Below the pieces are notes generated by a model. That model did no database searches. It had not been told where the DNA came from and saw only the letters and a list, made by a program, of their open reading frames with translations. A stretch of 64,000 bases of DNA, taken from positions 16,601,917 to 16,665,916 of the forward strand of contig JAOANR010000015.1 in assembly GCA_030278955.1 (NCBI GenBank), written 5' to 3'. Shown here piece after piece: positions 17,678-64,000 of the stretch. The translations under genes and the position numbers were made by a program. The DNA comes from Hygrophila difformis. Its lineage: Eukaryota; Streptophyta; Magnoliopsida; Lamiales; Acanthaceae. Positions within the stretch are counted from its first letter, which is position 1. Every line of letters starts with the position of its first letter.

Positions 17678-17710
17678 CTTGGACCGGACTCAGCTAAACC
17701 TTAGAGCCCT

Positions 17711-26414: not shown

Positions 26415-27982
26415 TGAGAACCGGGAGACGCATCACTCCGTTCCTCCGAGCCAGCCGTATCCATCTTATCCACAGCAGTCCCATCCCCAGATACCATGAC
26501 AGTATCATTAGAGTTTAGGAGACCCGCCCGCAGCTTCGCTTCTTTACCCGGTGAGATAACCACATCATTCCCCATCCCACCATTTGGAAGATGAGGGAAT
26601 TTAGTCGGGAAAATCTTGGCCAGATCAAATGTGTAACTCGTTTCCACGTTCCCCTTATCCTGCCGACTCCGTTTAGCGCCATGATGAGGACCCCGAGCTC
26701 GCGGGCTCGATGCATTAGTAGGTCCGACCTTGAACACGACCACCGAATTTGACTGATCATTAGTCGCGGCACCAGTCTTACGAGTTACAATTTTATTCCT
26801 CCCAGGTTGCGCAGCATGCACGGGTCCATTCTCATGGTCCGTAGGCTTAGTCTGAGCCCGTTTAGTTGGCCCAACAGGAGCCGGAACCACGGCCTTATCC
26901 AAGGTGGGCTTACGATGTTTTCTAGGTTTGACAATCATCCAATCTCCCACACCTAAATCCCCCGAATCTCTCTCCCCCAAATATGCAGATTCACTTTCCA
27001 AATTAGCAGATTCACTTGCCACCTTCTGTGGGATTTGTTGAGATGCAGATTCGGTTTCCTTGCCAGGCACGGTACCAGCCCCCGACTGACTTGAGAATTC
27101 TCCCATCGGCGGAAACCCAGAATCCGGCGATGGCGAGGACGATGCGTGCACTGGTGGGGACGCGGCATGCACTGGCAGGGTTGGACAGCAATCCTGGAGA
27201 TGACCATAGCAGCCACATTTCGTACAAAGAACATGAAGACCCTCGTAGGCAACTTGTACCATATCACCTTCAACATCCAATGTCCCCATGAGCGGCACAT
27301 CAAGCTTAATTTCAACGCAGACCCTAGCATACCGACCACGAGATATCGCTATAGTATTCCGATCAAACTTCAAGGGGGTGCCCAGCGCCGAGGCAATGGC
27401 ATGCAGTGTGTTCTCCTTGTAAAAGGCCTGCTTCATACCGATGAGACGAACCCACGTTTGGATTGTGTTCACTTTAGTTGTTGCCGGATTGAACTCGGGC
27501 GACCAACGAAGAATGGCAAGGCAGCGATTGAAAACCAACCACGGCCCCCCAGTAAGCACCTTCTCTCGGTCGGAGGGAATAACAAACTTGGCCAGAAAGC
27601 ATCCGAAACCAACATCCAGTAAATCGAAACCACCCTCAAGTTTCCAGAGCCGCTTAAGGCTCTCTTTCAAAGCCATATAGCCTATAGTAGATCCGAGCAC
27701 TTTCACAACGAGGGTATCCCTCCAAGGTAAATATAGTTCTTCAAGAAAATTCTTCTCAAATCGGATACGGGGAATCCGAGAATTAGCACCAGCGCGATCG
27801 ATAGTCACCAACTTTTCTTTCACCAAATCTGGTTGCCCCTCCGGAGATGGGGCCTCAAGTGCAAGCGCCTGACCTGCCATGGCAGCATCTCGGAAGGACA
27901 AAGGTGGCGAGGCGGGAGCGTGTGGCGGAAATTCAGACGGGGGAGGAGGATCAGGCGGAACGGGGGACGCGGGAGTAGTCAT
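26411..27982 (-). CDS. LINE ORF1 (DUF4283 and zinc knuckle)
   Basis: The 523-residue intact frame starts with a Pro-rich segment (1-35). A DUF4283-like nucleic-acid-binding fold covers about 75-215 (FLEELYLPWRDTLVVKVLG, GGPWLVFNRCLAILRW, TWVRLIGM). A knuckle follows with C253, C256, H261 and C265/C266 (CTKCGCYGHLQDCC). The C-terminal half is disordered and basic. Such proteins bind LINE RNA and form the transposition RNP with ORF2. Its stop TGA overlaps the ORF2 ATG as ATGA (26411-26414), which suggests termination-reinitiation. Confidence 0.85.
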   Translation of the reverse strand: MTTPASPVPPDPPPPSEFPPHAPASPPLSFRDAAMAGQALALEAPSPEGQPDLVKEKLVTIDRAGANSRIPRIRFEKNFLEELYLPWRDTLVVKVLGSTIGYMALKESLKRLWKLEGGFDLLDVGFGCFLAKFVIPSDREKVLTGGPWLVFNRCLAILRWSPEFNPATTKVNTIQTWVRLIGMKQAFYKENTLHAIASALGTPLKFDRNTIAISRGRYARVCVEIKLDVPLMGTLDVEGDMVQVAYEGLHVLCTKCGCYGHLQDCCPTLPVHAASPPVHASSSPSPDSGFPPMGEFSSQSGAGTVPGKETESASQQIPQKVASESANLESESAYLGERDSGDLGVGDWMIVKPRKHRKPTLDKAVVPAPVGPTKRAQTKPTDHENGPVHAAQPGRNKIVTRKTGAATNDQSNSVVVFKVGPTNASSPRARGPHHGAKRSRQDKGNVETSYTFDLAKIFPTKFPHLPNGGMGNDVVISPGKEAKLRAGLLNSNDTVMVSGDGTAVDKMDTAGSEERSDASPGSQ

Positions 27983-31442: not shown

Positions 31443-34115
31443 TCATTCTTCACCTAATTCGTATTCCCTCCCATCACTGCCAATGACCCACACTCGAAGC
31501 ATCTCATTTCCGTAGTCCTCTCGTTGTTTCTCCCATATCTGCTTTGCCGAATTGATGACGTAATTGCTACAGTCGTCCAACACAATTTTATCCAATGTTT
31601 CTATGTCTCCAATACTTGAAGGGATCTCCAACTCTTGATGTATGCCACGAAGCCAAAGCGTCTCAAGATTAGGGAAGTGTGCGTTTTCAGCTTCCCAATA
31701 TAATAGATCATCAGCGCATTCAATATGCAAGACTTTCAATCGAAGAAACTCCCCTTCTGTCGGAGTCCACTTAGGCCCTATGAATGCATTCTCTTCTAAT
31801 ACAAGCCATTCAAGAGTGGGCAATGAACCGATGATCGCTATACCCTCCCATGGAATTCTAGTGTTCCGCAAAATTAATGTTTTAAGTGTATTGGGGAAGG
31901 AGATATTCTCTGGGGTGAAAATTGGCATATCTACTTCTAGCAATTCAAGTTTGTGAAACATGGAAAGATAGCATAGCGAATAATTCATCCCTAAATCAGA
32001 ATCACCGTCGTCTTCGCAGATCCTTAGTTCCCTCAAATTTGGAATTCTACAAACAACTTCAGGCGTACACCTAAAATTTATAATCTTACCAAGTCTCCAT
32101 AGGTTTTTTAGTATAATAAAATAATCTCCCTCCATATTAGTAGTATCAGAAGGATAAGTTAAAAGGGCTCCTCTACGAACTAGAATTTCCCTGAGTTGAG
32201 GCATCCTCCAAATTTCAGATGGTAAAACTATTGAATTTGTTGAATCCGATTGCTCAATAATTAAAGTTTGTAACCTCCACAGTAAATGAGCAAATGACGG
32301 AGATACAAATTTAAGATCATTGGGAACTTCAAAATAAAGGATCTGCAGTGTAGTAGGATGCACCAGTTCTTTAGAGGAATGTTCTCCGACAATGTCCATT
32401 ACTTTCACCAAACTCAGTCTCTTAATGTGTCCATACTCGATTGCACAATCTTCACACACAAAAGGACGAACTTGTGATGATGATGATGATGATGGAGTGA
32501 TAACAACGAGGCGACTGGAATTTAACTCTTCCTTGTCTCCGCATGCTTCACCACATAACACACACGCCTTCTCCTCCTCCTCCCCTATTGTGTCAATGTA
32601 ATGCTCTATAGGAGAAGAAATAAATTGGTTTTTATGATATTCTTCCTTACATAGGTCCCATAAAAGATCATGTAATCCACACCTACTTACATCTCCATCG
32701 GCATAATATTGATGAATCAAAATAAGATTCCTGCCAACAAGAGTCCTAAAATATTCTTCTGCAACAGATTCCATACTCCTCTGTTGTATCGGCTGAATTG
32801 ATCCCCATGTATCCCAATCACTGAATAGTGGACGTGGGTAAATTTGAAAACCTTTACGATATCGAGACATATATAGGAAGCATGCTCGAAGATAAATGGG
32901 CAAATTATTGTAACTCAAAGCCAACACTTTCATACAATGCCCATCATCTCTCAAGTTACGAAAGGAATTCACATCCTTTGCAACAGTCTCCCAATATTCT
33001 ATCGTCACCTCGGAACTAGCAAGCATGCTACCGATCACCACAATTGACAACGGAAGTCCTTTGCACCCTCTTGCAATATTCTTTCCCACTTCCTCCAATT
33101 CCGGAATTGGACCATCCCCTTTGGGAAACGCTTTCTCGCAAAGTAATTTCCAACTGTCATCTATGCTTAGGAAATCCACTCTCTTTATATTTAAAGTAGG
33201 ACTCAAAGAAGAGGCCACAATCGAGTCCCTAGTAGTCATTAGAATTCGACTCCCATTCCCATCCCTCGGAAAGAACATCTTGAGATCATCCCATACTTTG
33301 GTAGACCACACATCATCTATCACAACCAAATATCTTCTACCAAATAACCCCTTGTATAGCTTTTCGCTCAAGTCCCTAGCCTCGACACCACTAAAGATTC
33401 TCTTTTCTCCACTATCTATAAGTCTTTGAATTACATCTTCAACAACATATTGTTGAGAAACAGCCACCCAAAGACGTACATCAAAGTGATGAGAAATAAG
33501 CGGATCACGATAGACAGTTTTAGCTAAAGTGGTCTTACCAATTCCCCCCATGCCTGTGATTGTGATGATCCCAAGATGTGCTTCACCATTCGTCAGCTGA
33601 TCCTTGATCTCTATCACTTTCTCGTTCAAGCCCACCACATTATCATCCTTGGAGGCGTCGGACGAAACATCAGCAGCAGCAGAGGAAGAAACTTTAGGAT
33701 ATTTCGGAGCTTGAATGTTTTCTCCATGAGTCTCGTCTCCTTCCTCTATGGCAATTAACAGATCTGACTTGATCTTGTGGATAATATGGTTCACTCTCTC
33801 CATATCTTCACAGAAAGTGGAGTGCCCCATATATCTTTCTTCCTTGTGGAGCAGATCTACAACATGTGCATCTATAATACTGTCTGCCTCATGAGCTATT
33901 TCAGCAATTTGCCACCACAAACTTTTCAGCTTTTCGCTCTTTATTTCAGAATGAGCCGTGACAGCAGATAGCAAGAAATCAACACTCTCTCGAAGAGCAT
34001 CAAATGGCTGTGCATCCAAAGGTGGATACTGAATCTCGATACGATCAAAGACGTTGACCAGGAGTTTCGAAAGGGAAACCAAAGATCTATAGGCAGCTAT
34101 CGCTGTTTCCTGCAT
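31443..34115 (-). CDS. CC-NB-LRR disease resistance protein (R1/Rx type)
   Basis: A single-exon 890-residue ORF. The N-terminal Rx-type coiled coil (1-120) has an EDVID-like IAEIAHEADSIID near 70-83. NB-ARC has P-loop GMGGIGKTT (188-196), RNBS-A FDVRLWVAVS, kinase-2 LVVIDDVW (263-270), RNBS-B GSRILMTTRD, GLPL (353-356) and an LHD variant of MHD at 481-483. The segment 515-563 is unusual: C518, C521, C525, then poly-Ser, then C554 and C557. LRRs run from about 590 to 850 and end in the usual CSNYVINSAKQIWEKQ segment. Such proteins are cytosolic or nuclear immune receptors that bind ATP/ADP and trigger cell death on effector detection. Length is normal for the family, no stop is present, and the gene looks functional. 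RNBS-D (CFLYMSRYRKG) departs from the consensus. Confidence 0.92.
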   Translation of the reverse strand: MQETAIAAYRSLVSLSKLLVNVFDRIEIQYPPLDAQPFDALRESVDFLLSAVTAHSEIKSEKLKSLWWQIAEIAHEADSIIDAHVVDLLHKEERYMGHSTFCEDMERVNHIIHKIKSDLLIAIEEGDETHGENIQAPKYPKVSSSAAADVSSDASKDDNVVGLNEKVIEIKDQLTNGEAHLGIITITGMGGIGKTTLAKTVYRDPLISHHFDVRLWVAVSQQYVVEDVIQRLIDSGEKRIFSGVEARDLSEKLYKGLFGRRYLVVIDDVWSTKVWDDLKMFFPRDGNGSRILMTTRDSIVASSLSPTLNIKRVDFLSIDDSWKLLCEKAFPKGDGPIPELEEVGKNIARGCKGLPLSIVVIGSMLASSEVTIEYWETVAKDVNSFRNLRDDGHCMKVLALSYNNLPIYLRACFLYMSRYRKGFQIYPRPLFSDWDTWGSIQPIQQRSMESVAEEYFRTLVGRNLILIHQYYADGDVSRCGLHDLLWDLCKEEYHKNQFISSPIEHYIDTIGEEEEKACVLCGEACGDKEELNSSRLVVITPSSSSSSQVRPFVCEDCAIEYGHIKRLSLVKVMDIVGEHSSKELVHPTTLQILYFEVPNDLKFVSPSFAHLLWRLQTLIIEQSDSTNSIVLPSEIWRMPQLREILVRRGALLTYPSDTTNMEGDYFIILKNLWRLGKIINFRCTPEVVCRIPNLRELRICEDDGDSDLGMNYSLCYLSMFHKLELLEVDMPIFTPENISFPNTLKTLILRNTRIPWEGIAIIGSLPTLEWLVLEENAFIGPKWTPTEGEFLRLKVLHIECADDLLYWEAENAHFPNLETLWLRGIHQELEIPSSIGDIETLDKIVLDDCSNYVINSAKQIWEKQREDYGNEMLRVWVIGSDGREYELGEE

Positions 34116-34477
34116 GCTGAAGATCTGATGGAATTCTTACAAGCAGATTGAAAATCTTTGATTTGCAAGATTGAAGATCTGATGAACAAATGGTTATATT
34201 CTTATGAAAAGAAATGTTTTGTGGATGACTTATTATTCTGTCTTCACTACCAAGCGCGTTTTCAATACTATACTAGTAGTCAATAGTCAATAGTCAATAG
34301 TCAATGGTTTAATAATAATTTTTTTGGCTCAACAATGGTTTAATAATGGGGTTCACTTAGGGTGCGATTGCCCATTTTGATTTGATGTGCTGCGATGCAT
34401 TAAGTCCGTTGATTCAATTTGTAAATTGATGGTTGAGATTAACTTGAAGGTTAAAATAGTAAATTTATTAAATTTAA
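34116..34477. other. Upstream region of the NLR gene
   Basis: About 360 bp separate the NLR start from the Helitron border at 34478, so the promoter is short unless Helitron sequence contributes. No clear TATA box was chosen. Confidence 0.4.
34277..34306 (+). repeat. Short tandem repeat, 7-bp unit
   Basis: Four copies of GTCAATA in a row, about 160 bp upstream of the NLR start codon. Its role, if any, is unknown. Confidence 0.8.
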
Positions 34478-39000: not shown

Positions 39001-39673
39001 CTTATTTTTAAATTTTATTTTATCTTAATTTAAGTTTCAAATCAAATAAAAATATTATTTTAATAATTATTTTTATTGATCTGTTAGGTTAGTATAGGAC
39101 AAGCCACTGAAGCTAAAGATACAATATAATACGATATTTCTTTGTTGATTTTAAAAATAATTAAATTATATTATCATATATATATATCCTCTCTTGAATA
39201 TATAAAAAAAAATCATTACACATTTTTCATTACTCAAAATACAATTTATTATTACTATATATAATATAAGTATATATATTATATAAAATATATAGTTATA
39301 CCCGTCGAGTCTCGACGGGTTATTTACTAGTTATTCATTATAGAGTTTAGTCTATTGTGTATAAAATCTATTATGTACTTATAATTATTACTCAATCATC
39401 CTATCATGTCACTATATATTCACTTTTAAAAATATTTGAAAGATAAAATTTGAAATTTTGTATTTTTTATTTTATCTATGTTGGACTTTATTTATTTGTA
39501 TTTTTTTATTTTATCTATTTTAGATTTTATTATTTTATATTTTTATTTTATTTATTTTAAATTTTATTGCTGCATTTAGAATTTATTTATAGATCATATG
39601 ATTATGACGAGCTTTTGCACTGGCAACTAAGAATTATGTTGCATTTATGTTTCAATATGGTGAATATATTGTA

Positions 39674-44628: not shown

Positions 44629-44817
44629 TATATTAAATAAATATAAAGTTATGCCCGTCGAGTCTCGACGGGTTATTTACTAGTTTTGTAAACAAACAAT
44701 TGATCGTCTCTTCAGTCTGCTTTTACTCTATTCTTTCTCTACACATTTCAATATCATCAATTGATCTTACATAAACTCCAATTTACTTAATTATGCTGCA
44801 ATATATATATATATATA

Positions 44818-45477
44818 TCTTTGAACTGTTCATGAAAACGTACCTAAAATGTTCGAGTCGCTGAATTGTTGATGAAAACGTCGCTGAATTGTTCATTAAA
44901 AGATTGTTGAATTGTTTCTGGCATCATCGCTCAATTGTTCATGAAAGCGTCGCTGAATTATTTTTGGTGGCATCGATGAATTGTATACGGTAGCATCGCT
45001 GAATTGTTCTTGATAGTGTCGCTGAATTGTTCTTGGTGTAGTCGCTGAATTCTTTTAGGTAGGCTCACTGAAATATTTTTTTGTAGCATCACTGAATTAT
45101 TTTTGGTAACATCACTGAATTGTATGTGGTGGCATCGCTGAATTCTACAAGGTACTGTCGCTGAATTCTTCTTGGTGTAGTCTCTGAATTCTTTTAGGTA
45201 GGCTCACTGAAATATTTTTTGGTAGCATCACTGAAGCTGAATTCTACAATGTATTGTCGCTGAATTCTTCTTGATGTAGTGGCTGAATTCTTTTAGGTGG
45301 GGCCACTGAAATATTTTTTAGTACCATTACTGAAGTAATTTTGGTAACATCGCTGAATTGTATTTGATTGTGTCGCTGAATTATTCAATGTAGCATCGCT
45401 GAATTATTCAATGTTGAATCGCTGGAATATTTTTGATAGCATCCCAAAATTATTTTTGGTAACATCGTTGAAATGCT
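44818..45477 (+). repeat. 23-bp minisatellite with higher-order pattern
   Basis: About 28 imperfect units of a 23-bp repeat close to TCGCTGAATTNTTCTTGGTAGCA. A larger block recurs three times: a GGTGTAG unit, a TTTTAGGTAGGC unit, a TCACTGAAATATTTTTT unit and then two or three others, with one internal deletion in the second block. The unit is not a multiple of three and no long frame is present, so it is non-coding. Confidence 0.88.
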
Positions 45478-45723
45478 ATACGCAATAAATTTGTTATATT
45501 ATTTACTAAATATTCTTGATCATAGATATGATTACCAAATATTTGATATGATTTACCAAATATTACATTGATAACATACTAAAAATAGGGTTATATCTTC
45601 GGTTACGTATTTTGTTGGACAACTTTACCCTTTTTCCATTTACAACCCTTGGATTTGAAATCAATGGTCCAGATTTCCGCTTTGATGTGCTGCGGATTTG
45701 TTCAATGGCACCCTAACTAAAGC
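45478..45723. other. AT-rich flank of the minisatellite
   Basis: No gene is recognised. A TTTGATGTGCTGCG segment at about 45680 is shared with the NLR upstream flank near 34380. Confidence 0.4.
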
Positions 45724-46972: not shown

Positions 46973-47210
46973 ATTAAAAATAAATTTATGTTACTATTAT
47001 TTACATATATTTTAATTTTTGAATGATTTAATTATTTTATTTAATTCACTGATCTTAATTTTTTGATTTAATTTAAATTTATATTTTATTTAATTAATAA
47101 ATTCTTTATTATTTATTTAATATAGTTTTAGTTTTTATTTTATTTTTCAATTTAATTACTAATTTATATATATATATATATATATCTATTATCTATCTAT
47201 CTATTATCTA
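46973..47210. other. AT-rich DNA with TA and CTAT simple repeats
   Basis: A TA run lies at about 47167-47185 followed by CTAT/ATCT repeats to 47217. No gene is present. Confidence 0.6.
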
Positions 47211-47239
47211 TCTATTATACTACTATATAAATGGGAGAG

Positions 47240-47960
47240 TTTTTAATTGTTCCCATCAATTGCAATCTGGGCCCTTGGATGCAGCTTCCAATTTGTGTTT
47301 CTGACCGTTGGATGTGACCCGGTTTTGGCTGTGCGGGTCGGGCGAGTGGTATTCTTCGCTGTCTTCCACTCACCACTCAGGTGTCTCGCTGTCGTTCTGT
47401 CCGTCGTCTTTCTGTCCAATTTGCCACGCTTCAATTTTTATGTGGGCTTACTCGAGGTTTGAAGTTTCCATTGAGATTTATTGCAGTTGCTTTGCCCATC
47501 GTCGTCTTCGTCTCTTCCTGGCCCTAATCCCTCCCGCCTGATTGACACCGCCGCTGCGAACGCTGTTGTAAGGTGACGTTCGCTCGCCACCGGTGGAAAC
47601 TGGCCCATTACCTCGATTTGATCAGACGGAGTGTGGTTGTTGGGGCTGCCAGCACGCCCAGCTTTTGGCCGGAACCCTAATGCTCCGGTTTGTCTTCGCC
47701 TTCCCTAATTCATTTCGGGCGCTGTTCTACTTTGCAGCCTCAATTGCCCGCGGCCGTCGTCCCTTGTTTTTTGGTAATATTTTCCCGATTTCATGTCCAG
47801 TTGGCAGATTTTTTGTGGTTCCATTCATGTTCTGCACAATTATTTTTAGTCGTTTGTTTGTTTCTGCTTCAATCCTATCTTCGCCGCTATCCAACCACCT
47901 ACAACCTTTTATTAATTTCTTTTTCGTTAGTGATTTTGTTTAAATAATGTAAACTGTTGC
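47240..47960 (+). other. GC-richer leader-like region
   Basis: This stretch is richer in C and T and ends in a T-rich tract. Overlapping frames (47247-47947) in three phases are not convincing genes. It could be a captured 5' leader or an element terminus. Confidence 0.35.
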
Positions 47961-48843
47961 CTGGCATTCCTGTGTAAACTTTTATTGATTTCTTCTTGAA
48001 TAGTTAGTTGGATGAATTTGGAATGATGGGAGGGAGCTGTAACTATGTTATAAGTCTGTTGGATGAAGTCTGTTGTTTAGGGTAATTCTGTATGTGTCCA
48101 TATATGTTGACTTCATTGGTAGTGGTACTGATTATATATGCACTTTGTTAGATTAAGATGACCCAAATGATGTTGAAGTAATCATATGGAAGCAAAAGTG
48201 AGATATATGTTGTGGATGAAGGTGTAGAGAAAGCGAGATATATGTTGAGTCCATGAAATGAACATCCAATGGCAATCCGTGACCCGAAGCTAAAATCCTA
48301 AATAGAAAAGGAGTTCATGTAAAATCTGATGGAACAATTTAAGGATGCAACGAACGTATTAATGGAGAGTAGTAATAGGATAATGATGAATGCATAAAAT
48401 AAAATTCAAGGAGAGATAGGGAAAAGGTTGTACAGTGGTATAACTATGGTAGAAGCCTGACGAATGTGAAGATTACCTAAAGACTCTGGACTTTTAGATT
48501 AGAGAAGAAGTAATGATTAATTGAAAGTGTGAATCAAGGATCGACAGCCTGGGCCGATGGTGAAAGAAATGCACACTGCACAACCTGGGCCCTGGTGCCT
48601 GAGAAAAGCCTCATACTTGAGAAATCATCACCGAAGATGTAGGATCATGTGCAGTCTGAGAAAGCCCCAAAAATCCATGGACATCACTAAACACACTGGA
48701 GGCAGAGGGAGGCATAGCTAGATATGTGGACATAAGGAAATAGTGATGGCACCATTTATTGGGTTAGGGTTTTAGTGGCTAGAATACTATGTGCATTGCA
48801 GGAAATATTCTCTGTTCTCTCAATTTATAGAATGTAGTTACAA

Positions 48844-48882
<39 letters not shown>

Positions 48883-48952
48883 AAAACGCATATATGCTCT
48901 AATTTTAATATTGTTCAACAAATAGTTCTTTATGGATTCGTGTGTTTTATAG
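47961..48952. other. No recognised gene; AT microsatellite
   Basis: An AT run lies at about 48848-48880. I see no coding segment before the callose synthase exons. Confidence 0.5.
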
Positions 48953-51154
48953 TCTGGAAGCATCAATCATTTCCATTCATTCCTGGTCTTTTGATACCTT
49001 TATTAACTTTGATATTTTTAATGTTAGTGTTTTGACTCCGTACTATACGGAAGAGGTTCTCTTCTCATTACCTGAGCTGGAAGAGCCAAATGAAGATGGT
49101 GTTTCCATTCTCTTTTATTTGCAGAAAATTTTCCCAGGTTTGTACTTTTGAGGTATATAGACCAAACAATATTTCTATTTTCTACCAACCTTATATGTGA
49201 AAATCGTGCAACCGTGCAGACGAATGGAACAATTTTTTGGAGCGCGTTGATTGTTAAAGTGAAGATGGCCTTAGAGAATTTGATGAATTAGAAGAGCAAC
49301 TACGCCTTTGGGCATCATATAGGGGCCAGACATTAACAAGAACTGCCGAACTGGTATGAACACAACTGGCTTCATGTTTTTTTATCTCCCCTTTTGATTT
49401 TCCTTTTCGCTGTTTCCCTCAGGGTGGGTTTGGGGTTCATTGGGTAGATGCTTTGAGAGAAATACCGAGACGTGTTTAGTTTATTTCATTCATTGACTTT
49501 GAGATAAACTATACCTGCGGATACCCTCACTTACTGCTTTCATATAGCACTTGATCAATCAACCGATAGATGTGTCAGGTATGTAAAACGAATTTGGATA
49601 CATCATGGGCTAAGCTGTCAGCCTGTTTTATCTTTGATCTATGGAATGGGTTCTCATGTAGTTCTGTCAATTTATTCATGTGTTTCATTGTCACTTATAT
49701 AATTAAAATGAAGTTCCTCAATATTATGCTCGTGTTGAAAATATATTTGGTACTCATGCATCATTTATCTAAAATCTTGACAGTGAGAGGAATGATGTAT
49801 TACAGCAAAGCACTACAACTTCAAGCCTTCCTAGATATGGCTAAGGATGAAGGTATTTCTTTTTGTTCTCGTCTCTCTGGAATGAATGCACTGAGCAAAC
49901 ACTAGGTCGACTGGCTGCTTATTCTTTTATGTTAAACAGATTTAATGGAAGGCTATAAGGCCATTGAGTTGAATGAGGATCAAATGGAGGGAGAAAGGTC
50001 ACTATGGGCACAATGTCAAGCAGTTTCAGATATGAAATTCACATATGTTGTATCATGTCAGTCATATGGTATTCATAAACGATCTGGATATCAACGTGCT
50101 CAAGATATATTGAGACTAATGACAACGTAAGAGTTGTATAGATTATAGCTTTGCAACTGTTACCACTTACCAGGTAATGTCATTATCTCATGATTCAAAT
50201 CTTTAAGCAGGTACCCATCACTTCGAGTAGCTTATATTGATGAGGTCGAAGAACCAATTAAAGACAAGTCCAAGAGGATTAATGATAAGGTTTACTATTC
50301 TACTCTTGTGAAGGCTGCTTTGCCAAAAAATTCTTCAGAACCAGGACAGAATCTGGACCAGGTAAAAGGGCATCTAATTATTTAAGGGAAATGTGGCTAC
50401 GCAAAGGGTATATAGTTTATTATTTCTATTATATTATTGAGAGATAGGAATGGAGTCATCCCCTTCCCGGCTCTTGAAACTCTACCCCTAGGTCTTGTGT
50501 GCTACTGATTTGCAGTTTTCATCTCTAATCTAGCCTGAGAGGCCTTGATTTCCTTGTGGAAGCTATTTTTCTTTTTTTTTTTCTTTATTTCCTTTTTCTG
50601 TTTTATAGTTTAACCTCTTGTCATGAATGGATTACTACATGTTCTCACAGATATAATTCCTAATTGCAGGTTATCTATTGTATAAAACTTCCAGGCCCTG
50701 CTATCTTAGGTGAAGGGAAACCTGAGAATCAAAATCATTCCATCATTTTCAGACGTGGAGAAGGCTTACAAACAATTGATATGAATCAGGTAATCTTTCT
50801 TGTTTTATCTCTTCTGTTTCGGGTTCATATCTTTTCGGTTTTGATATGAATATCAATTGCAGGATAACTACATGGAAGAAGCACTGAAAATGAGAAACTT
50901 ACTTCAAGAATTTCTTAAAAAGCATAATGTAAGGCAACCCTCGATTCTTGGTTTGAGGGAGCATATCTTCACTGGCAGGTCAACATTCAATCATAAAATA
51001 TTATTTCCTGACTGAGGATCAATCAATTCTTGTGTTCTTGATTTATGTACAAATATTGTTTGTTATGCAGTGTTTCCTCTCTTGCCTGGTTTATGTCGAA
51101 TCAAGAAACAAGTTTTGTTACCATTGGCCTGAGATTATTGGCAAACCCTCTAAA
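48953..51154 (+). pseudogene. Callose synthase (1,3-beta-glucan synthase) gene fragment, eight exons
   Basis: Exons with GT-AG borders lie at about 48953-49138, 49220-49353, 49784-49852, 49940-50126, 50211-50361, 50670-50789, 50863-50978 and 51071-51154. They encode in order SVLTPYYTEEVLFSLPELEE, DELEEQLRLWASYRGQTLTR, GMMYYSKALQLQAFLDMA, QSYGIHKRSGYQRAQDILR, VYYSTLVKAALPKN and VSSLAWFMSNQETSFVTIGL, about 300 residues of the cytosolic glucan synthase domain of plant callose synthases (GSL/CalS). The enzyme makes callose from UDP-glucose at the plasma membrane and cell plate. A TAA stop at 49255-49257 and a small duplication at the end of exon 2 break it, and both ends of the protein are missing. 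Phases fit across the other junctions. Confidence 0.88.
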
Positions 51155-51644
51155 GTAAGCTTTACAATTTGTGCTGCATCCCCTCCATTTTTAAAATAAA
51201 AACTCAATCTTTGGATTTGTATGCTACTTGAAGCATAAATAAAAATTAATGCTTATGGTTGGATGTATTTTTAGATTTATTTATTTTATATTTTTGGAGA
51301 AAAACTATGTGTATGATTGTGATTGATCTTCAGGTTCATGTTACTGCTTTCCTTATTCTTATAACTTCTGTTGCATGTTTATTTTATCTCTTTTTAACCT
51401 TTGTTTATAATAAACATGTTTTATTTGTGTACTAAGGCACAAGCTTGATGCAACAATGACATTTTCTCATGTAGGAGTTATGCAAAGTATTTTACGTCGA
51501 GAATATTTTACTTTTATTGGCTGTCTCCCTATATGATATCACAGTTACTTTATGCACCCCTATCTTCAGTGGGATTTGAACTTTTCTTTTATCTAATTTT
51601 TATTGGGTTTGGTCAATTGGTTTGATGACGTTCCTGGAATTTAG

Positions 51645-51890
51645 GAACTCAATGGTGTCTGATTTGGAAAATCACAAAGAAGAGAAGTTTGAAATAGATC
51701 TTATGGTGAGTATGAAGTCATTTCCAACACTTTATGCTATTCGTGGTCGAAGGTAATATTGTATCTTATTGCTTGAGTTATATTTCAGGCTCCGCCACCA
51801 GTGGCAAGATCCTCTCCCGAGAGGGAAAGCATGGTAGAGTCAAGGATAGCTGTCGGGGATCAAAAGCCAGTTCTGTCCAATGTTGATTCT
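51645..51890 (+). pseudogene. TIME FOR COFFEE-like fragment, two exons
   Basis: Exon 51645-51705 (after TTTAG, before GTGAGT) and exon 51789-51890 (after TTTCAG, before GTAAGC) read NHKEEKFEIDLM and APPPVARSSPERE. The EIDLMAPPP and RSSPER segment recalls plant TIME FOR COFFEE-like nuclear clock proteins, which I identify from memory and with modest confidence. Only about 54 codons are present. Confidence 0.45.
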
Positions 51891-51965
51891 GTAAGCAGAT
51901 TACGTTGAAATAATTTTAGTGATGGTTTTTGGATTGAAATAGGAGGTGGTGACCCTGAATAGAAT

Positions 51966-52606
51966 GATTCAACCAGATACAACAAGAGATTCAAGCAATA
52001 CAACCCCACCCTCGGCTGCTCCACGACTTTCCACATCTACTTTCCTCCATCATCTTTGCCGTCTCACAAATTCCTGGTAACTCCAATCGCCCAACATTAG
52101 TTTCTTATTTCTCCCAGATACATGTAATTACGGAATTTAATTGATTTCAGTTCTATGTTGAAGAGCACTAATCAGCTTCACCTTTTTTTTTTTAATTCGA
52201 TTCTTACATTTCTTCAACGTATGTATATCGTAGAGTAGACTATGTTTTTACGTAATGGCAATAGGGCGATGTAGCGTCCTGGAAATATTGGTTTCATTGA
52301 TAGTTGGTGTTCCTATTTTTGTTTAATTTTTTGATCTCTTGAAATGTTTATGCAACTGGGATTGTGCAAATGGGAATTCTTGTTGAATAATTCTTGAAAC
52401 TTATATTGATGTTCTTGCTGGACAACTTGTGGCATTATGTAATCTCTACCTTTATAACTTCAATTAATTCTTCTGTATAGGCGCTATATTGGCTTTCTGG
52501 ATTTAGTTGCACTGATGAGAATTTTATAATCAAATCCGGTGCACAGCTGGCTGCTTCCAGCTTGGGTGTTGCACTGATTGCCCCAGATACTTTTCCAAGT
52601 GGGCTC
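51966..52606 (+). pseudogene. S-formylglutathione hydrolase fragment, two exons
   Basis: Exon 51969-52076 reads RYNKRFKQYNPTLGCSTTFH and IYFPPSSLPSHKF; exon 52481-about 52606 reads [20 protein letters not shown] and [20 protein letters not shown]. This is the N-terminal third of S-formylglutathione hydrolase (esterase D family), which hydrolyses S-formylglutathione in formaldehyde detoxification. The catalytic Ser, Asp and His lie further on and are missing. The sequence switches to TBC protein leader at about 52607 without an intron. Confidence 0.85.
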
Positions 52607-53657
52607 TTTTGAAGTCCCATAAAAGTAAAATGTGGAGATATAATGGGACTCCAACCGATTCTTATTATCAGGTGCGGCCTGAATGTGCTGATGATGTCCC
52701 TGAAAGCAAGTTCAGGATCAAGGTTTGTTGCATTTCTTTCTTGATAATTGTACAAAAGATTCAGTATTTCTTCTTGTTGAGTTATTGTGAAATCAATATA
52801 GATCAGGGGAGGGTCTGATGGATGGTTTCATTTGGATTAGTTGTTGTTGTTTGGCGTTGTTTTTGACTTTAGGAAATGGTTGAGAAACTTGCTCACGCTT
52901 CCAAATTAGGCAAAGAATGTTCATGTGGTGTCTTTGCTTTAGCATATGAGTTATATAGATGTCCTGGTGGCCTGCAGGTTTCTGATGTTTGCTTTAGTAT
53001 TCATGGGGTTGTATATGGTAACTATTTGGTAGTTGGGTTTGTTTTGCAGATATTGAGCTTCATGTGATGTGTTTGGTCAGTGGTCGCCGGATATTCATGT
53101 TAGTTTGCCCGAAACTATACTGAACTGAACATTTCACTGAGTTTTCAGTTTACAAATATGTTGATTATCCGAAAGGACATTGTATTATTTGCTTGCTGGT
53201 CAGATTATGCTTCTTCCTTATTTCTTTAATTGATGTAGTGATACTTGAAATACATCATGATTTTTTCTGAGCTTAGTTTGTGGTTTTAAGCTTGTTCACT
53301 AACATGATGACTATCTATTATGATGCAGATTGGTGGAGTTTTCGTTAGGCATGCTGTTTACTCCATATTTCTTAAAGTGCATGATAGCACTAATCCTTGA
53401 TATCTCTAAGCAACGGGAGCATTAACTTGATCCCATGATAATATTTAATAAGTGAACTCTAGAATGTTGACTTTGTTTGTTGGATGGCACCAGCTATTCT
53501 TCAATGTTTTGTTTGTGTTCCCTTGTGACTGAATTATGTTTGACATTCTTCTTCATGATAGGCTGGAAAAACCGTAAGTCCTCGAAAATGGAGAGCCTCA
53601 TTCTCCCCAGAAGGTTATCTTGACATTGGCAAAATACTCAGGCGAATATACCGTGGT
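52607..53657 (+). pseudogene. TBC-domain Rab-GAP 5' fragment, two exons
   Basis: After a leader the ATG at 52630 starts MWRYNGTPTDSYYQVRPECA, which continues to 52722 with a GT donor; exon 53562-53657 reads AGKTVSPRKWRASFSPEGYL and DIGKILRRIYRG. This is the typical N-terminus of plant TBC1 proteins (Rab GTPase-activating), where a GGIHPSIRGEVW segment should follow. That catalytic part is not present; the next exon belongs to another gene. The intron between the two exons contains two other open pieces (52874-52978 and 53331-53400). Confidence 0.78.
52874..52978 (+). pseudogene. Unrecognised exon-like piece in the TBC intron
   Basis: Between a TTTAG acceptor and a CTGCAG/GTTTCT donor the frame reads MVEKLAHASKLGKECSCG and VFALAYELYRCPGG. 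I do not recognise it. A second short piece at 53331-53400 (after GATGCAG, reading IGGVFVRHAVYSIFLKVH) is equally unknown. Confidence 0.35.
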
Positions 53658-54095
53658 GTAAGTCTCTCCTTGTATAGCTTTTATCACTAATATGTATTCC
53701 ATATCAGCTCACCTAGAAGTGAGAAGAACTTACGGGATCAAAAGAGTAATTTTCCCAGTAAATTAGAATCTATATTTCCATTTTATCCTAAGGCGACGAG
53801 GTATTTGTTGCCCTATGAAGTGGGATGAAAACTTATGTTGATGAATTATTTGGTTTGTAAATTATGCCAGTAAAAGAAATATCTCTGCCTTGTGGTTTTA
53901 ATGCTTTGTCAATGTGAAGTTCGTGTTAGATATTCTAAATATTAAATTCTCTTCATCTTTCTTTCGAGGTGAGAGAACTTGTTAATTACACCCGCCTTCA
54001 GGTGGTTTGATTTTTCTAAGCTATATATTCTCTTCTATATATATATATATATATATATATTACTGCCAATTATGCAAATAATATTGCCCTTTCAG

Positions 54096-54194
54096 GTTGA
54101 ACATCCCATTACTGAGGTGATTGTTGGTCAAGATCTTGTGGAGTCACAAATACATGTTGCTGAAGGCGAACCTCTTCGAGTCAGTCAATCATAG
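54096..54194 (+). pseudogene. Biotin carboxylase-type exon, probably MCCA
   Basis: After TTTCAG the frame reads VEHPITEVIVGQDLVESQIH and VAEGEPLRVSQS before a stop or donor (ATAG/GTACCC). The HPxTExxxGxDLVExQ segment is the conserved C-terminal part of the ATP-grasp domain in biotin carboxylases; the wording is closest to the alpha subunit of 3-methylcrotonyl-CoA carboxylase, a mitochondrial enzyme of leucine breakdown. Only this one exon is present. Confidence 0.75.
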
Positions 54195-55942
54195 GTACCC
54201 TTGATTTTTGTTGTGCCATGGTTGAGACCTGCTTACAGATTGAAAGAATCGGCTATTGAGATAGTTTTGCTTGATCAAATCCATAATATGCTGGAGGTTG
54301 TTATAATTTAATGACTTCAAGTGTTAGTTAACACCTTTTTTTACCTGTGCTTTATCTGTATTGTGACTTTAATAGTTCAAAGGATAATTCTGAGTAGTTG
54401 GAAATTGTCTATGGTAATATATGCCTTTAGGCTCTAAGCTTTGGCCATCTGCATATTGTTCAGTTAAATTGTTCTGAACCAACGTAAGCCATAATTCTAC
54501 TTTATTTGTGAAATTTGGTTAGTCGTCTTGCTAGATGGAATTGGGAAATACTCATTACTGTAGATATAAGTCTGAACTTCATTGGTATGGCAAAAAAGAA
54601 GGTGAATAGATCAAATGTTCTTTTCTCGCTCTCACATACGGTTCATCTGCTTGCTTTGTTCTATATTATTTAGTCTAAAGGAGTAGTAGCAGAAAACATG
54701 AAGGAAATCCGAACGCCTCTTATTCTTCTTCGATGCAAGGATCCAGCAAGTTTGCACTGTTCCAAAGGTTTGTACTTGACATGAAGTGCTATAATACTTT
54801 GTTCTAGATTTTACATTTACTGTTATAGATTATTTATCAATGCTTTTAGCTGCTTATTTCTTAGCCTTAGTAATCACCAAGCTGACTCATGACTCGTAGC
54901 ATTCAGTGGTATGAATTCTTTACACCAAGCATTTCCGATTGCTGATGGAGGCCTGCTCCTGCTCCTGCAGCATGAAACTTTTTTATACTCAAGACACTTT
55001 GCATGATTTTGAAATTTCTACATATTCTTGCTTTCATTTGTTTCTGTATCCCAATCAATTTTTTTGTTTTGATCTCTTGCTCATGATCCTAATAATTGAA
55101 TTACTCACTCTGGGGTAAATGATGTGGAGTCAGCTTCTATATCCACTGGTAAGTTACAAGAGGATGATTCAAGAGGTGCAACTCTCTTACAGAGTATATT
55201 TTACCATTGATAAGTTACAATGTAAAATCTGGATCTCTTCTTCTTTTTTTTTTTAGATTATTAAATTACCTTACAAATTCTGGCTTCTCATTCATTATAT
55301 TCATTCTATCTTGTTAGATTTGTACTACTTGTTTATTTTGCCCATTTCTACAAGGACTCTAGGGTTTAGGATTTAGGGTTTTTTTTTCTTCTTTCGTGAT
55401 TGTTATATTTGTACTTCTCATTCATTTTCTCTCTTCATTTTTCTGCCTTCAGGAAAATGTTATCTTATTTGATTTATTATACAGAATCACATAGCATGCC
55501 TTCAGGAAAATGTTCAGGTTCAGTTCTTGCATCATTTAGTTCTCAGTTTTATGTAGCTATTTTTTTTTCTACAAGACAAGTATAATATGTTTGCGACCCC
55601 ACAATTCTTCATCAAATAATTGCCTGCATTGACTAAAGTACACCCATAATTATTTTTTTCTGTACACTTCATTGGTTTGGTCATAAAAGAAGTTAAGGTC
55701 TCATAGCATTCTTGGGTCTCATCTATAAGATCTATATTTGAATACACTTTTGCAATTGTGATGTCCTTATCAAAAGACATCTTCAAAGTAATGTATTTCA
55801 TTATGATTCCCATGCCGCAATTAATTTAAATTGGACCGTGTTTTCTTCACCATTGTATCCTATCTTATCCCGTGTTTTCTTCACCATTGTATCCTATCTT
55901 ATATCTTTCTGGAGGTTATATTAACGAGCATTCAATTTTCAG
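54195..55942. other. Intron-like DNA with one open piece
   Basis: An open stretch at 54681-54768 reads VVAENMKEIRTPLILLRC before a GT and is unrecognised. A 33-bp direct duplication (TGTTTTCTTCACCATTGTAT and following bases) lies at about 55838-55905. A GCCTTCAGGAAAATGTT direct repeat lies near 55446 and 55498. Confidence 0.4.
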
Positions 55943-56016
55943 GAATGGTGGAAAATTTGATTAGCAAGACACTAATATGGAAGGATGAACAAAAGATGTT
56001 GTTCCTCTATGATCGG
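55943..56016 (+). pseudogene. MAP65 microtubule-associated protein exon fragment
   Basis: Between TTTTCAG and a GTAAAT donor the frame reads MVENLISKTLIWKDEQKM and LFLYDR. This matches the plant MAP65 segment in which a KTxxWExExG-F-YDG pattern lies near the microtubule-binding region. MAP65 proteins cross-link antiparallel microtubules. Just 74 bp are present. Confidence 0.55.
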
Positions 56017-57029
56017 GTAAATTTTTTATAACTTTTCTAGCATTTTGGTGTTTTGGGGTAACAAACAATTGCGGCATTAACTAGGTTCTAACTTCCATCA
56101 GAAATGGAAGCTAAAATTCATCTGCCTATTGATGAATCATTCAAAACAGTCTCAAACCCCTCACTTAGAATATAATAGGTTATGAGAGAAGACGAATCAG
56201 AAAAGGTGAATTATTTTTATTATTGGAATCTAACATTCTATGTGTGTATCTGCAGATGTAATGTTCATGCAGATATATGTTATTAGTGCTTTTTTAAAAT
56301 TTTTGGCCCATACCATAGATATCTAGCACTTGACATGTCTGATGGTCTCATGTGCTTTTTTGTGGAAATAAAAGAGTTTGGCTTTTCTTCGTTTCCTCCC
56401 AAAAAAAACTACTGATAATGAACTGTCTTGCAACTATCTAAAAGTTAGTAGCTCTTTCGTGCCAATTACTTTAAGGACACTATTAATTTCAGTTGTTCTT
56501 ATTCCTACTGTTTGTAATTAGATTAGTAATTAGATTCGTCGCCTAAAACATACATTTATTTGCTCTTTTGATGTTAAACATACATTTATTTGATTTTTTG
56601 ATGTCAGTCACTTGAAACATACATTTACTTTTTTTTTTCTTACTTTAATTTGTTGATGGGAAGTTTAATTTGGTTTTAGGATTTGAAAGTGGATCTGCAC
56701 TCACCGCTTCCAACCTCCTCAATCCATTAGCAGTTGATAATATATTTGAAATTAGATGATTATTACTCTATCCGTACAATAATCTTATCCTTTTAATTAG
56801 GAAACAAATTCTTTGGAAACAAATTGTTATAAATAGGAACTCACATACACTTACCTATAATTATTTTTTCTTCCTCCATAGGCAGTTGTATATCTCTTTT
56901 ACGCTGTGCATCCCACAGGTGTTTGACTAGTCTTATATATAAGTGTGGAGCAGTTTTTTGCTACAGTTGTTTTCTTGTCTACAGTAATTTTGCTTTTAAT
57001 GTAAAACGAAGCCGTTTGGCCCCTTCTTT

Positions 57030-57730
57030 AACCTTTTGATTTGTTTTCATCTGTTTGGGAAAGTTCTCGCTGCAACAAATCTCTGAATCCATTCTCCTCC
57101 TCTCATCTCCACGATCCCTGCGTACCCGAAGCTCCACCTGACGGTGCCACCCACAAAATCAGGGCACAAAGAAAAGGAAAAACCAATTTCAGATCTAAAA
57201 TTGTTCTTCCCTTCCAACCTGCTGTGTTGCCGCCTCTTTTCATCGTCGTGATGCCCGCAGCCGCGTCGCCTACCCAATCCTGCTACCGCTCGCTCCAGCG
57301 CCTCCGGTCAATGCTGAATCGACACCGCCCCTCCAGCCTTGCAGCCACCACAAGCCCCCCCTCCTCGTCTTCCGCTGTTGTGCTCGACCACAGTCTCTCA
57401 CCGCTGCGTCGCCGTCCGCTGCCATCACCTCTGTGCTGCTGCTGTGCTCCGGCCGCCGCCAGCGTCAGCCACAACCTTCGAGCGCGACGAATCCGGCGCT
57501 ACCCTTCTCGCTATTCCCCACCTGTGTGTAACCCTTCCCAACAATTACTTTTTGGATAATTTCTGTTTCGATTTTATAATTAACAAAATATGTACCACCC
57601 GCCGCTGCCGCTCGCCATGTCGCGTCGACAAGCCACCGCACTTCCGGCTCGTCGCGACGCCGGGAATTAAACAAAGCGCCGCTTGTTGTGCTTTCGCTGG
57701 TGACGCTGTTGTACGGAGTATTTGAATTGT
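57030..57730 (+). other. GC-rich patch, possibly a captured first exon or leader
   Basis: It has markedly higher GC than its surroundings and long overlapping frames on both strands (57041-57559 plus, 57283-57474 minus) rich in Ser, Pro, Arg and Cys. No domain is recognised. It may be the leader region of the NPF fragment that follows or of another captured gene. Confidence 0.35.
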
Positions 57731-57983
57731 TGACTGTTGCTTTCTGGGTGACTGGAGATTTGGATTTGCTGGCTATGCGAGAGCATCTTTTTGTTAGGTA
57801 TTTTTTGGGTTCGTTTTGTGTGTTTTTTTCTTTATTCTTGTCTTTTTTTGGTCTGGCCTTTACTACTGCGATGTACTGATGTTTGATGAATAACCGAATG
57901 AATAGAATAGTTTAATGCCAAAAGTTTGCAAATATGTCTTGGTCCTGAAAATATAAACCATATATATGTGTGTTCATTGTAGG

Positions 57984-58496
57984 ATCAGAGTGCCATATAC
58001 AGAGAAGCTTATGAAATCAAGATTGCAATTTACCGAGATGGGAGAAGAAGATATCCATGTTGGGATGCAAGAAGAAGATTTCCATACATCTGATGGAACT
58101 TTGATTATAAAGAAGCCTACGGATAAGAGGGAAACTGGAACTTGGAAGGCATGTCGCTACATCCTTGGTAAGACCTTTGTTAATATCTATTTTATACCAC
58201 ATTTGCATTTTTAGCTTGCAAACTCCGATCATACAACTGATCTTTTTTTTTTTTTTTTCCCAACAGTAACCGAGGGATGTGAGAGGGTGTCATACTATGG
58301 AATGAGCACCAATTTGGTGAATTACCTTATTGAACGGCTTGGCCAAAGCAATACAATTGCATCAAACAATGAGACAAATTGGTCAGGGACTTGCTACATC
58401 ACGCCAGTACTTGGAGCCTTTCTGGTTGATTCATATCTTGGTAGATATTGGATTGATATTGCTTATTGGTTACCCAAGTCTTCTTTGCTTGTATAA
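57984..58496 (+). pseudogene. NPF/PTR transporter 5' fragment, two exons
   Basis: ATG 58038 opens a frame with a DGTLIIKKPTDKRETGTWKA segment, ending at a donor after 58167. The second exon, from 58267, reads TEGCERVSYYGMSTNLVNYL and TNWSGTCYITPVLGAFLVDS plus YLGRYW. This is the N-terminus and first membrane segments of the NRT1/PTR family (NPF8-like, proton-coupled di/tripeptide or nitrate transport). Similarity ends at GRYW near 58458 and a stop follows at 58494-58496, so about 140 of some 580 residues remain. The ExxER motif is present as TEGCER, with the first Glu replaced by Thr if aligned in the usual way. Confidence 0.85.
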
Positions 58497-60112
58497 TTTA
58501 ATTCTTTGTTGTGCTTCTACTCCGATGTTTTTCGTCCAGAATTCTTCAACCAGTTTCCTTACCTAAATGTATTTCTATTGTTTTTAAATGTTGAAAGATA
58601 GTTTATCCTGCATTTAACTGTGTATAATCCCGTGGCTGTATTCCTGTATTCAATTCACTTGCTTATTTCTTTGGACCCTCTATTGCCTCTTCATGCTAGC
58701 TCTATAATGAGGTTTAAATCCATGGAGAACCATTTAAATTGATTAATTTCATTCTTTTTTCCTCTGCCTCAATGAGATGAATGAATACTAAATTGCTTTC
58801 TATTATTTGTAGTCATATCATTCATTCAATATAGTTTAACAGACACTCATTCCAGATACTCATTACGTGACCACCAAAACCCTCCGCCACGCACTTTTGT
58901 TCGTTTCTCACGCACCAGAGCGGGGTCTTGTGCCTTCCGCCTACAACCCCTTAGCCTTGTAAGAATTCTTCTTCTTCTTCACCTTCACGTCTATCAATGT
59001 TTTGATTTGGCTTTTCATTTCCCATTCGGGATTTCAGTAATTGATTTGTGCTAACTTCGCTGCACTTCTGGATAGTATATCTTACGTCCGTTCTATTTCA
59101 ATTGTTTGCTGTGGTACCGACTAATTCAGAGGAATTGAATGAAGTTTTTAACAAATTTACTTATATTGTTGCGCTCCAATGAAATTAAATGAAGAAAATG
59201 AAATTGTACACTGCTATTTTCTTTGTCCTATTGTGTTGGTTCATTGTTGGTTTTATCTTAATTCAACAGTATCCTTTTGTAGTTGTAGTTATCCAATTGC
59301 TGCTATAGCATTTTTGGCATTCTTTCTTTACCCTTATAATTTATAACAGATTGCACACTTTTTTTTTCTTTTTCTTTTTTTTTTTGGTAGTTATTCACTT
59401 TTTGAAGTTCTAACGACAACTTTAATGTGCGTTGGTTTTGTTGAAAAGTGTAGCATCATTTTGGCGTGCTATTTTGTTTATTAGTTTTTTTAAAAAAAAT
59501 TATAATTTGGTGATTTAAATTTGCAAATTTCGAATTTGTTTGACGTTACTCCTGAGTGTGTAAATTACAAGTATCTACGTTTTCTTGAATTATATAATGT
59601 TGTATTCTGCTCGTACTTCTCTAACATTTTGCATTATTATCGCAGATTTTTGGGGTTTCCATCTTTCACCAACATCGGATCAGACATTCTTCTTTTGCTA
59701 GGATTTTTAATTTTTGAATTATTAGTTTTGTTCCTGAGATCTTTTTTTGGATGCATGAGGGTATTTCACATGACTTTGTGCCCGAGGCTGATAGTGCTAT
59801 TAAAGATATTTCACTAATATGACTTATTATATTTTGTAGATTAAGCTAGTCCTTATTTTAATTTATTTCTCTATGGACAATCTCTTTAGCATTTCAAGTA
59901 TATTTCACCAACTGAATAATTTGTCCATAAACTGACTTATTTGTACTCCATTCATCACGGGATAAATTTATATGTTTAACTTTCAGTTCCATGAAGCGTA
60001 AATTAGTAATACATTATGGTTGTGAATGAATACATTGTTCAACCTATTAAGAGCTTTGTAGTTATTGTTCTTCTATGACAATCTATCTTAACAATTGTTT
60101 CCGGTTCAGATC
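58497..60112. other. No certain gene; one leader-like patch
   Basis: A GC-richer patch at about 58857-58965 followed by TTG/GTAAGAATTC looks like a first exon with a donor, but I cannot name it. Long T runs occur at about 59361-59385. Confidence 0.35.
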
Positions 60113-60334
60113 CGCGCGGCGTAGCGCGCGAGGAAGAGTTGTAGAATGAAAATATATATGTTAAATATAAAGCTTAACATATGATGACAGGAAATGCAAG
60201 GTACTCGGATAGTACAAGCGCGAGAAAATCTATTCCCCACCAGGGTTCGACCGCTCCCTTCAATATATCCTAAAACATATTTGGGAAGACTTTAATATAT
60301 ATGACACATGGCAGGATATAATTCGTGGCCTGAA

Positions 60335-63278: not shown

Positions 63279-64000
63279 CTAGTCCTCGTGTTTTCGCGCG
63301 CTACGCCACGCAAGATTCGATGAGTCTAATATTTCAACATGTCGTAGGTTGTACGATAAGTCTGAATGACCTTATTATGAAAAGTGATAGTACAAACGGA
63401 AACCGATCATATAGGACACAAATCTTGCCACGAAAATAAAAGTGAAGTGATCGATTGTAAAATTGACGGGGGCAAAGTCGCATAAACCTATTTTATTGGC
63501 AAAACGGTAGACGAATAAATAGGAGCGTTAAAGGGCAATCGAGAAGAAGCAAAAAAATGATAATGAATAATTATTATTTTGGTGGAACCCTGTGTATCAA
63601 TCAAAATTCGTAGAGCATGAAACAAGCTTGAGCACTGGGCTTAGATAGCCTGACTCACAATACATATATCGGCCTGCATGGTAATTGTGATTAGATGGCT
63701 TTAGTGAACAGTGTGAGGCTTCAGTAACACATAATACCTGCTCACATTTTTAAGGTGATCATTTGCTTGTCATTGTGCGCTGCAGACTTCCCATTAGGGC
63801 AAAATATTTCATTATTGCTATGGAAAACATTATTTTCAAGCTTCCAAAAGCTGAGAATTCACCGTGATCACGTGCACTGAATTGAGGCCATATGTCACAA
63901 CAAAGCCTGCCATACCTATAGGAACAAAATCATTAAGATTAAAGTCAGAACTTGGCCTTTTTTTATCGTCACAAACTATTAACCAAATCCTCTAAAACTT
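63279..64000 (-). mobile_element. Helitron 3' end, element continues beyond the window
   Basis: On the minus strand the hairpin GCGTGGCGTAGCGCGC is followed by 12 bases and CTAG (63282-63279), then T. This is a complete Helitron 3' signal. The body runs to higher coordinates; 63300-64000 shows no recognisable coding sequence. The hairpin resembles that at 60113-60130. Confidence 0.7.

Follow-up and report, generated by a model that had tools for sequence, protein, structure and literature searches.

The window, a 64,000-nucleotide stretch of contig C7 in the genome of Hygrophila difformis (order Lamiales; 915 Mb, 246 contigs), holds a nonautonomous gene-capturing Helitron, which we call Helitron 1 and which belongs to this class both by its mode of working and by its membership. 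We directly observed both ends of the element, two slices that match parent genes, the introns that were kept, and the differing heads and tails of its relatives. Helitrons that capture genes stepwise are a known kind, of which Helitron 1 is a well-resolved new case. Our best explanation, which we consider likely, is that Helitron 1 is a nonautonomous rolling-circle transposon of a gene-capturing family and that its row of host-gene pieces was built by capture and exchange via strand jumps.

Results

Helitron 1 is a nonautonomous Helitron

A reading of the sequence alone had described seven host-gene pieces, all on the plus strand and with introns and splice sites mostly kept, inside one transposon that was taken to start at 48953. 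The strand, the introns, and the splice sites stood, but the real start lies further left (Table 1), and a single transposon for all seven pieces was rejected because the NPF piece, seen at 57980 to 58496, is outside Helitron 1 and within a second element, Helitron 2.

Table 1. Features of Helitron 1 and Helitron 2 (window coordinates)
Feature	Position	Strand	Evidence or remarks
Helitron 1 (nonautonomous)	47185..56930, 9746 bp	+	TC...CTAG, between A and T; both ends shared with C15 copy
Helitron 1 5′ head	47185..48152	+	GC 0.43-0.55 over first 600 bp
Callose synthase genomic slice, exons and introns	48153..51332 (3.2 kb)	+	parent C11:40130202-40133382 (-)
TIME FOR COFFEE (TIC)-like piece, putative name	51333..51975	+	present at many loci
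S-formylglutathione hydrolase (SFGH) piece	51976..52619	+	likely parent C4:36115384-36116017, 92%, from sequence match
Switch point	52619..52625	+	C7/C15 tail versus C10/C14/C5/X14 tail
TBC-type gene slice	52625..53987, 1363 bp	+	parent C13:29044671-29046030, 98.8%; mismatches 14, gaps 3
MCCA-like (biotin-carboxylase) exon with its flank	53988..54200	+	segment repeated at many loci
Further pieces, including claimed MAP65 exon near 55949-56017	54201..56902	+	without Pfam match
Helitron 1 3′ terminus	56903..56930	+	hairpin GCTGTGCATC(G/C)CACAG, 8 nt, CTAG, then T
Helitron 2	56931..60140, right end uncertain	+	starts TCTTATATATAAGTG; 5′ end inferred from motif
NPF/PTR piece, in Helitron 2	57708..58496	+	NRT1.1 structure match

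In both the C7 and the C15 copy, an A precedes the 5′ end TCTATTATC, which sits within a TA/TC microsatellite that leaves a few bases' doubt about this boundary, and the 3′ end reads GCTGTGCATCSCACAG-N8-CTAG followed by T. Variants of this 3′ end, whose family form is GCTGTGCATCGCACAG...CTAG, are found in C10, C5, and X10, with differing sequence beyond it. Helitron 1 thus shows the hallmarks of a plant Helitron, with TC after A at the 5′ end and a hairpin 10 to 12 nt before a 3′ end that reads CTRR and is followed by T. The flanks of the C7 and C15 copies are unrelated on both sides of the element, and no target duplication was seen by eye. The two copies differ at 33 of 8,036 aligned sites (48850 to 56930), and the C15 copy is broken by an insert of ~8.3 kb inside (TA)n at 48850. 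As for the Rep/helicase gene of an autonomous Helitron, six-frame scans of 47185 to 56930 revealed no Helitron or helicase Pfam family at E 0.05; Helitron 1 lacks the helper enzyme, like other nonautonomous elements.

Captured pieces are genomic slices with their introns

The callose synthase piece matches PF02364 (Pfam) with 228 bits when its exons are joined and is 97.8% identical to C11 over 3,138 sites, with differences at 56 of 2,178 intron sites and 14 of 960 exon sites. Since the introns align to C11, they were captured along with the exons, which supports the proposal that copying took place at the DNA level and led us to reject copying from mRNA. C11 is read as the parent gene because more of its stretches, beyond both slice edges, align to a paralogue in C12 (69 to 78%). 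Eight callose exons were listed by eye: each of their ends has a GT in place or no more than one base away, and seven of the eight starts have an AG in place or no more than two bases away. When five copies were aligned, a stop codon in a callose exon proved common to C7 and C15 while missing from the C11 exons, and an 8-bp insertion was present in C7 only. By eye, GGTTCA, the six bases at the right callose edge, matches neither the C11 parent nor X14, which speaks for a strand jump, and no microhomology is clear at the callose edges, a point against it, since the filler-DNA model predicts microhomology.

The exons of the C13 gene run on past both edges of the TBC slice (by eye). PF00566 was not matched in a Pfam query whose first residues came from the SFGH side of the junction. 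The family name TBC is therefore our own reading, and we take the piece to be GYP7-like. The suggested search for parent genes thus produced two that match whole slices, at 97.8% and 98.8%, which is more than chance.

Pfam supports two further names with hand-picked exons, PF00756 for SFGH and PF02786 for biotin carboxylase. A query with SFGH exons joined from two element copies matches solved SFGH structures, and the biotin-carboxylase piece matches solved biotin carboxylases. A blind scan of the window copy left both Esterase (21.8 versus a cutoff of 22) and CPSase_L_D2 (16 versus 19.8) below cutoff. The SFGH piece is longer in C10. Five of the nine hand-picked window pieces had no Pfam match, including the NPF/PTR, TIC-like, and MAP65 pieces, for the last two of which only Pfam was tried. 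While the proposed names callose synthase, SFGH, biotin carboxylase, and NPF/PTR were upheld, TIC and MAP65 were not confirmed. A genome search with the TIC-like segment gave 29 matches, window included; no parent was found for this piece.

Relatives are mosaics around a common middle

Six loci with the TIC-like segment were fetched and compared: L031, L032, and L033 (also named X14, X4, and X10, respectively), L034, L035, and L036. The family is modular, with a common middle joined to differing heads and tails, and the relatives have a common core with different captured pieces, as expected of stepwise gene capture. When compared to C7, the join points are at 47513 (C10), 48074 (C5), 48883 (C14), 50730 (X4), and 51284 (X10), and the departure points are at 51886 (X10), 51907 (X4), and 52619 (C10, C14, C5, and X14). 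The base-level junction at 52619 is identical in C10, C14, and C5, and X14 aligns to the C10 tail.

In the C10 tail, SFGH goes on and is followed by a RabGAP-TBC piece (19.7 versus a cutoff of 25.2) and then by a UCH protease piece. We read frames of the C5 tail as WAX2/CER3-like, a putative name without Pfam support; three of the six C10 and C5 tail pieces that were scanned had no Pfam match. A loss of the TBC piece from C10-type tails after 52619 was considered and rejected, since these tails continue SFGH, whereas the C7 tail switches. The start of the C7 tail (52625 to 54200) is shared at 98 to 99% with C15:44392186, C14:55437548, and C2:43215008, which are absent from the 19 matches of the SFGH search. 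The window copy is thus most likely a chimera of a head (47185 to 52619, with callose, TIC-like, and SFGH pieces) and a tail (52625 to 56930, with TBC, biotin-carboxylase, and later pieces), with any direction of exchange being tentative. Given such a chimera, with a tail whose first part is also present elsewhere in the genome, the row probably arose through both capture and exchange rather than in a single event.

One slot has differing fillers: some members have callose synthase there, whereas X14 has an exon of a class-II tRNA synthetase. Between 48156 and 51339, X14 has an 82-bp piece where C7 has callose, and the stretch with this piece matches tRNA-synt_2b with 38.3 bits (Pfam); we read the piece as threonyl-tRNA synthetase. 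Both fillers are flanked by sequences common to C7 and X14.

Two other properties of the family were noted. Five of eight element profiles show a promoter-like zone of high GC content, either close to the head or immediately ahead of the common core (C7 47185-47785, C7 56931-57731, and the heads of C10, C5, and C14); it is weaker in X10 and not evident in the X14 and X4 stretches. In L036, IRE1-like kinase exons, accompanied by a Ribonuc_2-5A signal, lie upstream of a further TIC-like copy and share its direction.

Helitron 2 and other features of the window

The sequence after the CTAG of Helitron 1 starts TCTTATATATAAGTGTGG, with no base between Helitron 1 and the presumed start of Helitron 2. 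A query with 56935 to 60140 matched C13:22456761 (91%, query 1-2134) and C4:45792973 (78%, query 1-576). Judging from these matches, Helitron 2 is repeated; they start at the first base of the query (56935), so its exact first base is not fixed. No Pfam family was found on either strand of Helitron 2, and the name of the NPF piece rests on the match to the NRT1.1 structure (E 1.5e-13). Positions 57708-58452 match C9:1637303-1638294 at 90%, which makes the latter the likely NPF parent. The head of Helitron 2 is GC-rich (0.56-0.66).

Elsewhere in the window, a different Helitron-like 3′ end, CCCGTCGAGTCTCGACGGG...CTAG with T as the next base, was seen by eye twice, at 39301-39330 and 44654-44683, and GCGTGGCGTAGCGCGCG...CTAG, also Helitron-like, at ~63279-63310 on the minus strand, with a similar hairpin lacking CTAG near 60113 on the plus strand. 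The minus strand also has an open 897-aa disease-resistance (NB-ARC) gene (31443-34136), the protein of which has top matches of ~36 to 43% in the Lamiales plants Sesamum, Andrographis, and Erythranthe, an open frame of 1655 aa, read as the polyprotein of a Copia-type retrotransposon (12722-17689, by eye), and frames that read as a LINE-type element (22650-27982, by eye). An array of ~23-bp repeats around GTCGCTGAATTGTTC occupies 44857-45480.

Host-gene families are found on the sense strand

In Helitron 1 and its relatives, nine host-gene Pfam families were above cutoff on the sense strand (Glucan_synthase, Esterase, CPSase_L_D2, UCH, HAUS5, TPR_1, Plant_zn_clust, Pkinase, and tRNA-synt_2b), and none was above cutoff on the antisense strand of the scanned members. 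Not all nine were obtained on equal terms: Esterase and CPSase_L_D2 needed hand-picked exons to rise above cutoff, an advantage given to no antisense piece, the HAUS5 stretch was scanned on the sense strand only, and the tRNA-synt_2b stretch was scanned with just one antisense frame. Five families remain when only blind scans of both strands are counted (Glucan_synthase, UCH, TPR_1, Plant_zn_clust, and Pkinase). Under a fair coin, five of five in sense has a p of 0.03 (1 in 32), in a nonrandom sample of members that were chosen for sharing window segments; the p of 0.002 for nine of nine mixes unequal terms. The direction in X4 and L036, whose Helitron ends were not seen, is relative to the common TIC-like segment.

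The Pkinase match is accompanied by Ribonuc_2-5A just below cutoff, and we read this piece as an IRE1-type kinase. The TBC slice, judged by the orientation of its parent on C13, and the NPF piece in Helitron 2, judged by its solved relative, lie in sense as well. One antisense frame in X14 with UPF1_Zn_bind (E 0.013, below cutoff) is a weak contrary signal. A Transposase_32 match in the left part of X10 is not to a host gene and was not counted, and the X10 tail has no Pfam family on either strand. These matches are suggestive of a sense-only bias that may extend to other members. Other lineages, in a sample of five families on equal terms, support the bias that the sequence-only reading had pointed out.

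AATAAA occurs five times in sense in Helitron 1 and 21 times on the other strand, as expected from T-rich introns. It is possible, but to our mind doubtful, that this family captures by rule on one strand, with only slices along the 5′-to-3′ strand of the Helitron being taken up or surviving. The reason would be either a coupling to donor transcription or, in antisense slices, A-rich introns and poly(A) signals that would end a read-through transcript on which mobility depends. Antisense slices would place AATAAA-type signals in the path of such a transcript; alternatively, the bias might arise from a capture step coupled to transcription. The portions consulted of the literature on Helitron fragment orientation and capture hold no statement on strand bias of captured fragments. 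Same-strand captured fragments have been reported in maize, and we therefore claim no novelty for the bias.

Discussion

How might such a row arise? During replication or repair, the growing strand would jump to a gene or to another Helitron, copy a genomic stretch with its introns, and then return. Internal breaks would thereby be filled, and family members would exchange heads and tails, presumably with the help of a trans-acting enzyme. This account fits the element ends with their unrelated flanks, the two parent slices, the switch points between lineages, the tail start found at other loci, and the slot with differing fillers, as well as the stepwise capture described in maize (PMC3288121) and the filler-DNA model for insect Helitrons (PMC6544945). 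A point against it is that no Rep/helicase family was found in Helitron 1.

Other origins account less well for these findings. Pack-MULEs and other terminal-inverted-repeat elements also carry intron-containing gene fragments, but it is exceedingly improbable that Helitron 1 is one of them, since the AT-rich inverted repeats around 47.2 kb have their partners at 48.8 kb rather than at the 3′ end (25 longest of 119 pairs), where there is a hairpin and CTAG followed by T. A terminal-inverted-repeat element was rejected: the element ends are not complementary by eye, and the 25 longest of 119 inverted pairs include no terminal inverted repeats. We regard as very unlikely that selection keeps the sense row for the sake of a useful RNA or protein made by splicing a transcript that comes from the GC-rich head. 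Although the sense order of the pieces, the mostly retained callose splice sites, and the GC-rich, promoter-like head would fit such a chimeric gene, a callose exon has a stop in C7 and C15, with the further 8-bp insertion in C7, and pieces are freely swapped among members.

Fusion of tandem or nested Helitrons would yield similar chimeras. Transposition from the 5′ end of one Helitron might miss its 3′ stop and end at that of the next, thereby fusing their contents, a route that seems unlikely here. It draws support from the window itself, where Helitron 2, by its presumed start, follows Helitron 1 head to tail, from L034, where another family 3′ end is followed by (TA)n and then by 5′-end-like sequence (~834-870, C9), i.e., head-to-tail Helitrons, and from the read-through shown experimentally for Helraiser in the portion consulted of PMC4778049. 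Against it, both the callose slice and the filler of X14 lie internally, between common sequences, and no internal family 3′ end was found in Helitron 1 with the pattern used. Capture and exchange via strand jumps thus remains our preferred explanation.

Once a gene-capturing family is named, the surprise falls, and what is left is a well-resolved exchange of modules and a possible strand bias. This family offers, within one genome, sharp capture edges, intact-looking parent genes at 1 to 2% divergence, and a slot with alternative fillers, and it is thus material for testing how Helitrons capture genes and what gives the pieces their shared direction.

As described in the consulted portions of the respective reports, three known systems resemble Helitron 1 in part. 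The maize helA Helitrons, with 0 to 12 gene fragments per element, share its TC, hairpin, and CTAG ends and a stepwise capture that was inferred from related members (ZmhelA2/A3/A4 and helitron_mc1/mc2; PMC3288121); here, by comparison, the host belongs to the Lamiales, the genome itself provides two delimited parent slices, and members differ in what fills one slot. Hel1 of Spodoptera frugiperda shares internal stepwise acquisition, ascribed to filler DNA at breaks, but the source loci quoted for it are ~67 to 100 bases (PMC6544945), whereas the slices in Helitron 1 are kilobase-sized and have introns. In Helraiser/Helibat, a 3′ hairpin like that of Helitron 1 is a stop signal that can be bypassed, and the capture shown by experiment is 3′ transduction (PMC4778049), whereas the callose capture in Helitron 1 is internal.
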